A stretch of DNA of 64,000 nucleotides from Isoptericola luteus (GTDB taxonomy: Bacteria > Actinomycetota > Actinomycetes > Actinomycetales > Cellulomonadaceae). Each line of letters opens with the position of its first letter. Within the stretch, counting starts at the first letter, position 1. Below the pieces are notes generated by a model, which was not told the origin of the DNA, made no database searches, and saw only the letters and a list, made by a program, of their open reading frames with translations. The stretch covers positions 321,610-385,609 of the forward strand of contig NZ_JAIXCQ010000001.1 in assembly GCF_020297055.1 (NCBI RefSeq). Direction: 5' to 3'. The position numbers and the translations under genes are program-made. Below are positions 54,532-62,612 of this stretch, piece by piece.

Positions 54532-54972
54532 ATGGAGTGGATCGGGTTCCTGGTGCTCGTGCTCGTGGTGGTGCTCCTGACCGAGCGCCTGGCCACCGGG
54601 TCGATGCGCCACCGGTCCCCGGACGGCGGTGAAACGGCAGGCTCGGGTGCGTTCGGCGAGCTCGTGGAGATCTTCCAGCCGTCGCGCACCCACGTGACCG
54701 CGGAGCGCGAACGGCAGCGCCTCGACATCGTCCAGCGCCCGGCCGAGGGCCACCCGTTCGGGGTCGACCTCGACGGGGGCGTCGCCTACCTGGGCGCGCT
54801 GCCGCCGTCGTCGGCGCCATCGCTCGTGGCCCCGCCCGTGTCCTCGCCGCCGACCTCGCCCGTGACCGCGTCGAGCACGGCGGTGGAGAACCCGTCCCCG
54901 AGCGCGGGGGAGTGGATCCCGCCGTCGATCGTCCACAGCTCCACGCGGACGTCGCCGGCGCAGCCGGAATAG
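54532..54972 (+). CDS. DUF6191 domain protein with an overlapping tail
   Basis: A 146-residue protein: an N-terminal membrane helix (IGFLVLVLVVVLLTERL), then the DUF6191 core SGAFGELVEIFQPSRTHV, QRLDIVQRPAEG and FGVDLDGGVAYLG. The last ~55 residues are Ser/Pro-rich and lie opposite the end of the convergent esterase gene (187-base overlap), so the tail composition is dictated by the other strand. The function is unknown. The start is leaderless-type. Confidence 0.7.
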   Translation: MEWIGFLVLVLVVVLLTERLATGSMRHRSPDGGETAGSGAFGELVEIFQPSRTHVTAERERQRLDIVQRPAEGHPFGVDLDGGVAYLGALPPSSAPSLVAPPVSSPPTSPVTASSTAVENPSPSAGEWIPPSIVHSSTRTSPAQPE

Positions 54973-55850
54973 GCCGCGACCGACGTCTCGGCACCGGGCA
55001 GCCCGACGTCGAGGTCGAGCGTGCCCGCTGCGACGGGCTCGTCGTCGCAGCGGTCCAGCCGGGCCCAGGCGGCGACCGAGTCCGCCGCGGAGGGGTAGGC
55101 GGCGCCTTCGGGGAGACCCACGTCCGCAAGGTTGCCGCCGTCGAACGAGACCACCGGGTCTGCCGTGCCGTGCGCCTGCACGACGCTCACCGGCCGCTCC
55201 GGTGCACAGGCAGCGTCGTCCGCGGCCATCGCGCCCGCGACGGAGACCACCAGCCGGACCAGGTCGGCGTGGTCGCACGCCGCGCGGTAGGCCATGAACC
55301 CGCCGTTGGAGTGGCCCACCAGCGCCACCCGGTCGGGGTCGACGGCGTGTGTCTCGGCGACGGTGCGGACGACGGCGGCCAGGTAGGCCGAGTCGTCGAC
55401 GCCGGGACCGGCCCCGGCCCAGGCGCAGCAGGCGTCCGTGGCGTCCCAGAACCTGCGTCCCGTGGAGTCCTGCGTGCCCTCGGGCAGCGCGTACAGCACG
55501 CCACGGCGTGCGGCGTCGTCGCGCAGGCCGAAGCGGGCGTCGACGCCCGCCGGGTCGTCGCCGTAGCCGTGCAGCACGACGAGCAGCGGCGCGGGCTCCG
55601 ACCCGTCGTGACCGGCGGGGACCACCAGCTCGAACGGCCGCCCGCCCGCCTCGAGGGTGACCGAGCCCGGTGCCCCGTCCGGTGACGTCGTGGCATCAGG
55701 CGTGGCCGGGGCGGTGCTGGCGGCCGACGGGGGGCCGATGCTCGTGGCGCCGTCGTCGTCCGGACCGCCGTCGGCGGGAGAGCAGGCGCCGAGCAGGAGC
55801 GTGACGACCCCGACGACGAGCGTGGGGACGACGGTGCGGCAAAGCGGCAT
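54786..55850 (-). CDS. Lipoprotein esterase of the PHB depolymerase/LpqC group
   Basis: A 354-residue exported protein: signal peptide with lipobox LLGAC (Cys near 23), Pro/Ser/Thr-rich linker, and an alpha/beta-hydrolase with PLLVVLHGYGDD, the nucleophile elbow VGHSNGGFMAYRAACDHAD near 192, QAHGTADPVV, and the C-terminal His in DGGIHSPALG. Related enzymes hydrolyse polyhydroxybutyrate, feruloyl or acetyl esters. A paralogue lies at 56686, on the other side of dps. It starts at ATG 55850. Confidence 0.85.
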   Translation of the reverse strand: MPLCRTVVPTLVVGVVTLLLGACSPADGGPDDDGATSIGPPSAASTAPATPDATTSPDGAPGSVTLEAGGRPFELVVPAGHDGSEPAPLLVVLHGYGDDPAGVDARFGLRDDAARRGVLYALPEGTQDSTGRRFWDATDACCAWAGAGPGVDDSAYLAAVVRTVAETHAVDPDRVALVGHSNGGFMAYRAACDHADLVRLVVSVAGAMAADDAACAPERPVSVVQAHGTADPVVSFDGGNLADVGLPEGAAYPSAADSVAAWARLDRCDDEPVAAGTLDLDVGLPGAETSVAAYSGCAGDVRVELWTIDGGIHSPALGDGFSTAVLDAVTGEVGGEDTGGATSDGADDGGSAPR

Positions 55851-56018: not shown

Positions 56019-56504
56019 TCAGACCTCGTGGTTCTCCGAGGTGATCATCCACGCCTCCTTCTCGAGCGCGGCGATGATCTCGTGCAGCAGGTCAGCGGTG
56101 GTCGGGTCCTCGGCGTCGACGTCGTCGTGCACCTCGCGCGCGACCTCGACGGTCTGGGCGATGCGCTCGACGATCGCGTCGACCGTGTCCCCGACGGACA
56201 CCAGCCCGGCCGGGTACGGCGAGAGGTCGGTGGTGGTCGCGACGGTCTCCGTGCGGCCGTCCGGCACCGCCTGCAGGGCCCGCAGGCGCTCCGCCACGAC
56301 GTCGCTCTGCTCGCGCGCCACGTCCACGAGCTCGTCGAGCTGGAGGTGCAGGTCCCGGAAGCCGCGACCGGTCACGTTCCAGTGGGCCTGCTTGCCCTGG
56401 ACGTGCAGGTCGACCAGGGCGACGAGGACGCGCTGCAGGTGGGTGCGCAGCTTCTCGGACGCCTCGGCGCGCGACGTGCTGCGGTTGATCGTGGATGCAG
56501 TCAT
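56019..56504 (-). CDS. dps: Dps-family DNA-binding ferritin
   Basis: A 161-residue protein with the four-helix Dps fold. The ferroxidase ligands lie in KQAHWNVTGRGFRDLHLQLD near 45-64 (His, His, Asp) and in DVAREQSDVVAERL. It oxidises Fe(II) with peroxide and protects DNA in stress. GAGGAGCTCC lies ahead of the ATG at 56504. It lies between two related lipoprotein esterases and carries its own terminator. Confidence 0.93.
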   Translation of the reverse strand: MTASTINRSTSRAEASEKLRTHLQRVLVALVDLHVQGKQAHWNVTGRGFRDLHLQLDELVDVAREQSDVVAERLRALQAVPDGRTETVATTTDLSPYPAGLVSVGDTVDAIVERIAQTVEVAREVHDDVDAEDPTTADLLHEIIAALEKEAWMITSENHEV

Positions 56505-56685: not shown

Positions 56686-57663
56686 CTACGCGACGTCCGA
56701 CGCGATGTCCGGCGCGACGTCGGGTGAGGTGTCGAGCACCGCGTCGAGCACGGCGTCCGCGAAGGCCGCGGTCGGCTCCGGCGCATGGCCGGCACCGGCG
56801 ATCGACCACAGCTCGACACGGGTGCCGGCCGTGCAGCCGGCCCAGGCCAGGACGGTCGTCTCGGGCCCGGGCACGGTCGCCCACAGGTCGCGGGGGGAGG
56901 AGCCGGTGACGGGCTCCGCGGCGCAGCCGTCCAGGCGCGCCCAGGCGGTCACGGACCGCAGGGCGGAGGGGTACGCGTGCCCTTCGCGTCGTCCGCCGCC
57001 GGGGTCGATGACGCGGTCGTCGGTGCCGTGGGCCTGGACGACGCGCACGGGCGCGGTCGGGGCGCAGGCGGCGTCGTCGGCCGGCATCGCACCCGCGAGC
57101 GACACCACGACGGAGACGAGGTCGGCGTGGTCGCACGCCGTGCGGTAGGCCATGAAGTCGCCGTTGGAGTACCCGACCACGGCGACGTGGTCGGGGTCGA
57201 CGGTGTACGTGGCGAGCAGGGTGCGCAGCACCAGCTCAAGGTAGGCGGAGTCGTCGACGGCGCCCCGGTCCCGGCCGCAGCAGGCGTCGGTGGCGTTCCA
57301 GAACCGGCGGCCGTCCGGGCCCAAGCTGCCCTCGGGCACGGCGTAGAGCACGCCGCGTTCGGCGGCGACGGCGCGGAGCGCGAGCTGTGCGTCGACGCGT
57401 GCCGCGTCGGAACCGAACCCGTGCAGCAGCACCAGCAGGGGCACCTGGTCCGCGGCGTCATAGCCCGGCGGCACCTGGACGTCGACCGGCCGCCCCCCGA
57501 TCTCCACCGTGCCCGACCCCGCGGTCACGGGCACCGCCGCATCGGCGGGAGCCGCGAGGGTCACCGGCCCCGCCGGCCGGGTGGGGGCCCAGACGCCGCA
57601 TCCGGCCATGAGCGCCGCCACCAGCGCGCTCAGGAAAAGCGTCCGGCAGCGGGGCAGTGACAT
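56686..57663 (-). CDS. Lipoprotein esterase, paralogue of the 54786 gene
   Basis: A 325-residue exported hydrolase with lipobox LMAGC (Cys near 22), VPLLVLLHGFGSDAARVD, nucleophile elbow VGYSNGDFMAYRTACDHADL near 168, QAHGTDDRV, and the likely catalytic His in GAGHAPEPTA. It shares RFWNATDACC and AYPSA with its paralogue but has GYSNGD where that one has GHSNGG. The last residues are an Asp/Val/Ala/Ser repeat (PDVAPDIASDVA). Probably a duplicated gene on either side of dps. Confidence 0.85.
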   Translation of the reverse strand: MSLPRCRTLFLSALVAALMAGCGVWAPTRPAGPVTLAAPADAAVPVTAGSGTVEIGGRPVDVQVPPGYDAADQVPLLVLLHGFGSDAARVDAQLALRAVAAERGVLYAVPEGSLGPDGRRFWNATDACCGRDRGAVDDSAYLELVLRTLLATYTVDPDHVAVVGYSNGDFMAYRTACDHADLVSVVVSLAGAMPADDAACAPTAPVRVVQAHGTDDRVIDPGGGRREGHAYPSALRSVTAWARLDGCAAEPVTGSSPRDLWATVPGPETTVLAWAGCTAGTRVELWSIAGAGHAPEPTAAFADAVLDAVLDTSPDVAPDIASDVA

Positions 57664-57731: not shown

Positions 57732-58130
57732 ATGACGTGGCAGGTGGCGCTCCTCCTGGTGGCGGCCGTGGTGGGGACCGCGGTCGCGGTGCGGTCGTGG
57801 GCCGAATCGGACGCCCACCGCGAGACGGTGGCCCGGCGTGACCTACGACGCCGTGCGGCGATGGCCGACCCGCTCGTCACCCTCGCGGTCCAGGTGCGGC
57901 TCGGGCAGCTGGCGGGCGAGCTGCGGCGGCTGGACGACGATCCCGACGTCTTCGCGCGGGCGCACCACTGGCGGGCGGTGCAGTGCGCCTACGACGCCCT
58001 GCTGCGGGAGGCCTGCCGCCTGTCCGGGCTCGCCGTCGAGGACCCGCCGCTGCGGGCCGACCAGCGGACCGAGGCCGCCGAGCGGCTCCGCGAGGAGCTG
58101 GAGCTCAGCTCCCGCGGCTGGAACTGGTAG
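57732..58130 (+). CDS. Small membrane-anchored protein, unknown
   Basis: A 132-residue protein with an N-terminal transmembrane helix (TWQVALLLVAAVVGTAVAV) and a soluble, helical, charged remainder (LAGELRRLDDDPDVFARAHHW, QCAYDALLREACRLSG). No family is recognised. It is likely real because it has an ATG with an upstream GGTGGTGATG, uses high-GC3 codons throughout, and its stop codon directly abuts the large palindrome. It is convergent with isocitrate dehydrogenase. Confidence 0.7.
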   Translation: MTWQVALLLVAAVVGTAVAVRSWAESDAHRETVARRDLRRRAAMADPLVTLAVQVRLGQLAGELRRLDDDPDVFARAHHWRAVQCAYDALLREACRLSGLAVEDPPLRADQRTEAAERLREELELSSRGWNW

Positions 58131-58244
58131 CGCCGAGATAGAGAAGGCGGACCCGCGAGATAGAGAAGCTCGGACACGAACCCAGCCGGCTGGGTTCGCG
58201 TCCGAGCTTCTCTATCTCGCGGGTCCGCCTTCTCTATCTCGGCG
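58131..58244. repeat. 114-base near-perfect palindrome with repeated GAGATAGAGAAG units
   Basis: Left arm 58131-58187 and right arm 58188-58244 are complementary over 57 bp with one A/C mismatch (A at 58176). CGAGATAGAGAAG occurs twice in the left arm (from 58134 and from 58156) and in inverted form twice in the right arm. A further GCTCTCTATCTCGGCG stands outside at 58251-58266. The whole gap between the convergent genes (stops at 58130 and 58267) is occupied. It could end transcription from both sides but is far longer than needed. Confidence 0.9.
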
Positions 58245-58266
58245 CCCCGGGCTCTCTATCTCGGCG

Positions 58267-62612
<4,346 letters not shown>

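Follow-up and report, generated by a model that had tools for sequence, protein, structure and literature searches.

Dispersed bacterial repeats that bracket an enzyme gene have been described for the REP and TIR families, and in the accounts available all of these go with Y1 tyrosine transposases (PMC8266576, PMC3733652). In the REP/TnpA-REP (RAYT) case enzyme and repeat belong together, the enzyme being a Y1 HuH transposase and the repeats hairpins of 20-50 nt headed by GTAG, while REPtrons are characterized there by many extragenic repeats and a mostly single-copy enzyme gene that lies beside its repeats, is bordered by palindromes and has not been seen to spread itself (PMC8266576, PMC3733652).

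A similar picture emerges around a palindrome in the window, by which we mean the whole 64,000-nt stretch of Isoptericola luteus DNA that was analysed: many extragenic copies of a short repeat, and a nuclease-like gene with such repeats on either side. None of the 28 genomes searched (G020 and G044 were not among them) matched the Y1_Tnp family (PF01797), which was matched in 5 of 14 control genomes, and this absence (28/28) rules out RAYT/REP membership. We lean towards explaining the arrangement as a two-part system of nuclease and arrays, REPtron-like and built from unrelated parts, in which the nuclease would cut and the arrays would be copied.

Palindrome and arrays in the host genome

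The palindrome occupies the gap between the end of a small forward-strand gene and the stop end of a reverse-strand isocitrate dehydrogenase (IDH) gene (Table 1). It is 116 bp long, with 98% complementary arms that abut without a gap. A preliminary description had rightly called the arms near-perfect with one mismatch, and had counted 57 nt where there are 58. Each arm holds CGAGATAGAGAAG twice, on the forward strand at 58134 and 58156 and, as CTTCTCTATCTCG, at 58207 and 58229. The five GAGATAGAGA copies (two on the forward strand, three on the reverse) stand 22 bp from their same-strand neighbours, and what had been read as an outlying half copy is a full 10-bp core, TCTCTATCTC, that keeps the 22-bp phase; only the two bases after the core differ. 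Allowing up to two mismatches, the 12-mer matches six times in the window, five times in the palindrome, against 0.73 in shuffles, and these repeats are not chance. The 132-aa product of the left gene matches no Pfam family, and its C-terminal end is seen at the same place in relatives. Orthologous 3' ends of the IDH gene in relatives carry arrays with other cores. Elsewhere in the window, as judged from translations only, 54786-55850 and 56686-57663 (both reverse strand) encode similar secreted-esterase-like proteins, with a Dps-like protein between them (56019-56504, reverse strand).

Table 1. Features of the palindrome and its two flanking genes
Feature	Position	Strand	Remarks
Small uncharacterised gene, 132 aa	57732..58130	+	Gene call; stop TAG 58128-58130 precedes the forward array
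Near-perfect palindrome	58130..58245		Arms 58130-58187 / 58188-58245; two facing arrays and a central hairpin
Core copy 1, GAGATAGAGA	58135..58144	+	Sense to the left gene, 4 nt past its stop
Core copy 2	58157..58166	+	22 bp beyond copy 1
Central hairpin, terminator-like stem without U-tract	58169..58206		Between both arrays
Core copy 3	58209..58218	-	Sense to the isocitrate dehydrogenase gene
Core copy 4	58231..58240	-	22 bp from copy 3
Core copy 5, TCTCTATCTC	58253..58262	-	22 bp from copy 4; 4 nt from the stop codon
Monomeric isocitrate dehydrogenase gene	58267..60498	-	Pfam PF03971 (IDH); stop end at 58267

Folded as RNA, the palindrome reaches -132.9 kcal/mol (z -16). Despite this strong fold, a scan of 57900-58500 for intrinsic terminators, that is, a G+C-rich stem followed by a U-tract, found none; the scan does not cover terminators that lack the U-tract. 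The earlier suggestion that the element also ends transcription is made plausible by its location and folding, and the U-tract form of terminator is what it lacks. An Rfam search of the same interval gave 12 matches to E 1, none at its gathering score, and the microRNA matches, all below gathering scores, were set aside as artefacts of long hairpins.

Across the genome of the window (G000; 3.97 Mb, 26 contigs), the unit is a directional 22-bp repeat with the core CGAGATAGAGA. The word GAGATAGAGA occurs 137 times, its reversed control word never, and there are 81 pairs of cores 21-22 bp apart. With 137 cores, a unique terminator is ruled out, and the palindrome belongs to a repeated element, as the preliminary description had supposed. 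We read stretches around the cores that cover 135 of the 137 copies, with genes called by a codon-usage script trained on the window and no annotation of the compared genomes used. There are 35 distinct array clusters; counts over 37 clusters include two duplicates (L157, L158), which the stop-codon and spacer counts exclude. Over the 37 clusters, neighbouring cores on one strand are always 21 bp (20 cases) or 22 bp (61) apart, in 81 of 81 spacings. Of the 31 clusters for which genes were called on both sides, 25 sit between convergent genes, and 50 of 53 arms follow the nearest gene with GAGATAGAGA reading in its coding sense. The core itself supplies the gene's TAG stop in 17 of 48 sense arms; another 30 start 4-42 nt past the stop, and the last is 866 nt distant. 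Called genes contain none of the 130 distinct cores. Single-strand arrays also occur, including between tandem genes (L168, L175). Because arms lie in sense behind genes and arrays can occupy one strand, the unit is a directional phased array behind one gene and not, as first described, the palindrome; the 'giant palindrome' consists of a facing pair of these arrays behind convergent genes. The site does look like an array of recognition sites, one of the two natures proposed for it. For the other, a mobile element, we see no mobility, and many sites are common to related species.

A host 3'-end system would likewise place arrays in strict sense orientation near stop codons. In such a system the nuclease-like protein described below would bind the cores, as RNA or DNA, behind stop codons and set mRNA 3' ends or block convergent read-through, and the arrays would be kept by selection instead of being spread by that protein. 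One-strand arrays keep their polarity in tandem gene order (L168, L175) and a strong hairpin forms where arrays face, both of which suit this alternative, while the lack of a U-tract does not.

The spacers between cores point to local copying. Within a site, spacers are identical in 8 of 32 pairs on the same arm and in 9 of 34 on opposite arms (25-26%), compared with 11 of 1650 pairs between sites (0.7%), which argues that whole units are copied locally. Since arms copy each other in this way, arm complementarity alone is no proof of selection for a hairpin. The 11 between-site pairs stand against 0.41 expected in column shuffles (maximum 7 of 200) and mostly involve one C-rich spacer; they lend weak support to copying between sites.

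Arrays also coincide with irregularities of the assembly. Two stretches compared between G000:C1:35200-52581 and G000:C3 (L152/L157 and L153/L158) are 100% identical, over 4001/4001 bp and 2065 bp, and the L153/L158 identity ends within 4 nt of an array's last core, so that the duplication or assembly join seems to stop at the array. Contig edges lie at arrays at the end of C6 and the starts of C7, C8, C9, C15 and C26; the assembly thus breaks at repeats, and the actual number of sites may not equal the count.

The nuclease-like gene and its bracketing arrays

Two inward-facing arrays enclose a gene of ~323 aa in G000, G005 and G020; the gene sits outside the window. The N-terminal half of its product is AbiEi-like and the C-terminal half resembles PD-(D/E)XK nucleases of the DUF559/MTES_1575 type. 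Pfam matches across the family are weak and repeated (MTES_1575, DUF559, AbiEi_1 and AbiEi_4): at E 0.01, MTES_1575 is matched in 11 and DUF559 in 6 of 17 members, many below curated cut-offs. Residues D242, E253, D255 and K259 of the PD-(D/E)XK-like motif do not vary among 17 aligned members and would correspond to the conserved acidic residues and lysine of an active site of this type. A PDB sequence search returned no credible relative, its two matches at E 0.88 being ABC transporters, and a single-sequence structure model of the G010 nuclease (mean pLDDT 40, pTM 0.29) was too poor to use.

Genomes contain several paralogous nuclease lineages, every one with a locus to itself. Locus I is shared by 12 genomes, with the same two neighbour gene families in 11 and no called upstream gene in the twelfth; locus II is found in five genomes and as a broken copy in G004, of which one side is seen, and locus III in two genomes. 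G005 carries three bracketed nuclease lineages (L186, L256, L258) and three cores, GAGATAGAGA, GAGGTAGTA and GAGGTCGA. Because the flanking genes are the same between genomes, a jumping nuclease with the arrays as its transposon ends is rejected for these lineages. The repeats might instead be a MITE or REP family mobilised by a transposase, classical or Y1, encoded elsewhere in the genome, and their dispersed, intergenic and patchy distribution would suit this. A MITE or insertion sequence has fixed ends with target-site duplication and a moving autonomous copy, whereas here array length, spacers and copy number vary with no fixed element, and the nuclease between the arrays stays at its locus. 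Together with the absence of Y1_Tnp noted above, this makes such an origin very improbable.

PADLOC AbiEi models match the N-terminal half more clearly than Pfam does (7.5e-14 in L195, a member of clade A, defined below), and with arrays adjoining the gene one could suppose a toxin-antitoxin-like or defence module, in which an AbiEi-nuclease fusion would be toxic or anti-phage and the arrays would act as operators or decoy sites restraining it. We think this improbable. Most arrays lie behind unrelated genes genome-wide and not at promoters, and the gene is stable at its locus. A search of viral contigs with the clade-A alignment gave no nuclease relative (25 pattern matches, none confirmed), and one clade-A query found nothing in a plasmid collection.

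We examined 75 homologous loci for bracketing, comprising 73 of the 87 nuclease places found and two of G044; G011:C3:223315 (L330), one of the 14 places outside the 73, was read later. In the phased test, which asks for a single phased 9-mer in at least 5 copies and present on both sides, 29 of the 75 loci are bracketed (23 of 51 in the genus). Among 258 control genes, drawn from four array-bearing genomes in 20 arbitrarily chosen stretches of 20 kb, 1 is bracketed, and among the 43 genes of the window none. The longest word common to both 400-nt flanks reaches at least 15 nt at 47 of 73 nuclease loci versus 6 of 270 control genes. Many phased-test failures (31 of 45) are therefore bracketed as well, for example L194, L209, L210 and the clade-A locus L189, whose flanks share a 30-nt word. 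One locus (L277) has too little flank for the shared-word test, and a broken copy (L241) is among the 75 loci and left out of the protein trees. Within the genus, 14 of 18 genomes have an AbiEi-like/DUF559-like nuclease of clade A at a fixed locus bracketed by arrays. Bracketing extends to other genera and one other family, where L209 (G025), L210 (G023) and L214 (G081) share 30-nt flank words and a 9-mer occurs 6 times around L212 (G034), with copies on either side. A gene between arrays by itself means little, as a case in G010:C10 turned out to be an unrelated GFO/IDH/MocA oxidoreductase.

Correspondence between cores and nuclease lineages

A tree of 74 nucleases contains a clade A (support 0.93) with 19 of 20 members bracketed, and an IQ-TREE analysis of 37 nucleases separates A from B at 95/96; L280, whose N-terminal third is unaligned, is in the first tree and not in the second. 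In 100-kb samples of G001, G009, G012 and G017, clade-B palindromes reach at most 2-3 copies of their specific word, and we therefore claim dispersal for clade A only. The seven clade-A core types, with labels assigned by the author, fit the nuclease tree with 6 changes, the fewest that seven types allow. As the loci are fixed and the bracketing cores differ, the same locus holds nucleases with different cores across lineages, and dispersed arrays agree with them.

Of 98 related genomes, 6 have paired GAGATAGAGA cores: 81 in G000, 62 in G010, 54 in G020, 48 each in G005 and G044, and 1 in G004. At the IDH gene end, read in 16 genus members, GAGATAGAGA arrays are found in G000, G005 and G010 (in G010 with one altered copy), and other genomes have other cores: CGAGGTAGTYC in G004, CGAGGTAGCGC in G001, CGAGGTAGAA in G014, CGAGGTAGGCA in G016 and G017, and CGAGTCAGCGC in G009 and G012. 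Arrays or palindromes with the further cores CGAGGYAGGCC and CGGGTCGGCAC follow the stop in L216 (G003) and L220 (G013), two genomes in which no clade-A nuclease was found at E 1e-20 although each has its own core at this site. G011 retains a scrap only, the read is cut off in G002, and G007 and G008 have no array. A second orthologous site gives the same picture in 12 of 18 genomes, with remnants only in some (G004), no array in G002, G003, G007, G008 and G011, and an ambiguous stretch in G013. Sharing of sites among related species shows in 18 of 20 orthologous genes found in array loci, out of 50 genes asked, a share biased upward by the choice of loci for their arrays. Matches outside the family, mostly metagenome bins among the matches listed, were regarded as purine repeats arising by chance.

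Over the two orthologous sites, the core at the site is that of the genome's nuclease in 21 of 22 genome-site cases, against a permutation mean of 4.1 and maximum of 18 in 100,000, not corrected for kinship. Labels were given by eye from the 5-6 bases after CGAG, and G005, with two such nucleases, was allowed either. The sole mismatch is G014 at the IDH site; this genome matches at the second site and has a second dispersed core, GAGGTAGAA, for which no matching nuclease was found. In G002 (L260), CGAGTCAG arrays have G after the core word and in G009 (L201) and G012 (L255) C, all within one nuclease subclade.

The number of arrays tends to follow the presence of an intact matching nuclease. 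In the genus, the nine genomes whose locus I holds a GAGGTAG-type nuclease contain 99-293 pairs of CGAGGTAG cores, and of the nine without an intact one, seven have 0 and the others 15 and 47 (exact p 2e-5, uncorrected for kinship). Spacing in CGAGGTAG families is mostly 19-20 bp, so that counting at 21-22 bp is too low for them, as it is for CGAGTCAG. Three of the seven zero-count genomes carry a GAGTCAG-type nuclease instead. In G011 (47 pairs) the nuclease at the same place is broken, with the stretch bearing the motif residues missing, while its close relative G007 has 226 pairs. The letters after GAGGTAGT vary in the intact G007 too, where the core is loosely defined; we therefore dropped the idea that the G011 arrays are degenerate, and claim only the lower count. 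G004 has a broken GAGATAGAGA-type copy and 1 pair, compared with 48-81 in the five genomes with an unbroken copy. The GAGGTAG-type copy of G004 (L280) does not align over its N-terminal third and is thus of uncertain state, yet the genome holds 143 pairs, which either counts against strict maintenance or signals that the copy was damaged recently or misread in sequencing.

By these comparisons, a partnership between nuclease lineage and array core is well supported. They also largely contradict the view that the arrays are plain bidirectional terminators or hairpins that drifted to species-specific sequences, with the nuclease link a positional coincidence. Location between convergent genes and hairpin energy fit that view, but bracketing, core match and presence/absence (kinship uncorrected) do not, and one-strand arrays cannot fold on themselves as facing arrays do; we find it barely credible. 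Host 3'-end function is the main rival. To the polarity and stop-codon fit that suit it can be added sites often common to several species and one member that weakly matches RAP, a domain linked to RNA (E 0.011, short of the domain's cut-off). Against it, arrays are missing from one of the studied sites, or from both, in several members of the genus, and the nuclease gene is itself bracketed by arrays, which a plain regulator would not need. We judge it possible but unlikely, and nuclease-gene bracketing and coordinated core change suit the REPtron-like reading.

A proposed partnership compared with known systems

In the REPtron-like system that we propose, the first part would be the nuclease-like protein encoded at a fixed chromosomal locus, and the second the short directional core arrays with a period of ~20-22 bp, right behind stop codons, whose core is specific to the nuclease lineage. 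The AbiEi-like part would read the core in DNA and the nuclease would nick or cut at arrays, so that repair would duplicate entire units locally, into the opposite arm and now and then behind other genes. Such copying would keep many arrays matched to the present specificity of the nuclease. The host would tolerate arrays behind stop codons, and facing pairs would form strong hairpins that may end transcription. Several observations count against this explanation: the nucleases do not jump from their fixed loci and many sites are shared between species, copying between sites is weakly supported, and the second core of G014 and the IDH-site cores of G003 and G013 have no matching nuclease found. 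The unaligned third of L280 beside 143 pairs, the failure of L189 in the phased test, the loosely defined core of G007 and the weak Pfam matches weigh on the same side.

On balance we think it rather probable that these are a separate repeat-nuclease class, independent of RAYTs, with lock-and-key co-evolution, concerted core change and fading after nuclease loss, present in several Micrococcales genera in many paralogous versions, and ranging from one palindrome pair to hundreds of arrays. If true, the same enzyme-repeat arrangement would exist with a second, unrelated enzyme class, and the partnership would have evolved more than once. Direct experiments on DUF559/AbiEi-type proteins would become possible. 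Nature offers a range of cores (GAGATAGAGA, GAGGTAGCGC, GAGGTAGGCA, GAGTCAGCGC among them) at shared orthologous positions, along with matched nucleases and cases of nuclease loss, so that the upkeep and rewriting of uniform dispersed repeats could be tested directly as well.

Likenesses to other systems are partial. In the DNA-uptake-sequence dialects of the Neisseriaceae, a species-specific word stands at gene ends, often in facing pairs that serve as terminators, and changes in concert between species. The present arrays resemble these dialects in their gene-end, species-specific and concertedly changing words; to our knowledge, uptake sequences have no tandem phasing and no bracketed nuclease gene. 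Proteins with AbiEi and DUF559 domains (PF09407, PF13338, PF04480, PF18741) share the domains of the nuclease, to the extent of weak, repeated matches, and we found no paper in the open-access literature that links AbiEi/DUF559-type nucleases to repeats. An AbiE toxin-antitoxin pairs an AbiEi antitoxin with an adjacent AbiEii nucleotidyltransferase toxin; one half of the nuclease matches AbiEi, and its neighbours at locus I belong to two constant gene families in 11 of 12 genomes.

Among dispersed repeats, CGTC-tagged REPs are likewise palindromic and are said to lack a dedicated transposase; they differ in sequence and form, and the available description names no nuclease partner (PMC3733652). 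The TAACTGA repeats of Beggiatoaceae are also short intergenic sets of direct repeats, 169 in one genome, with a patchy distribution, but they lie mostly just upstream of start codons, use the same word across distant taxa and have no bracketed cognate gene in the description available (PMC4679880). From REPtrons the present system differs in its enzyme, a PD-(D/E)XK-like nuclease and not a Y1 HuH transposase, and in its repeats, which are directional cores every 20-22 bp with variable spacers and not 20-50-nt hairpins headed by GTAG; the letters GTAG lie inside some cores (CGAGGTAG), and not in GAGATAGAGA or GAGTCAG cores. We found no known system with which it has a component in common, and it is the logic of the arrangement that resembles REP/RAYT.
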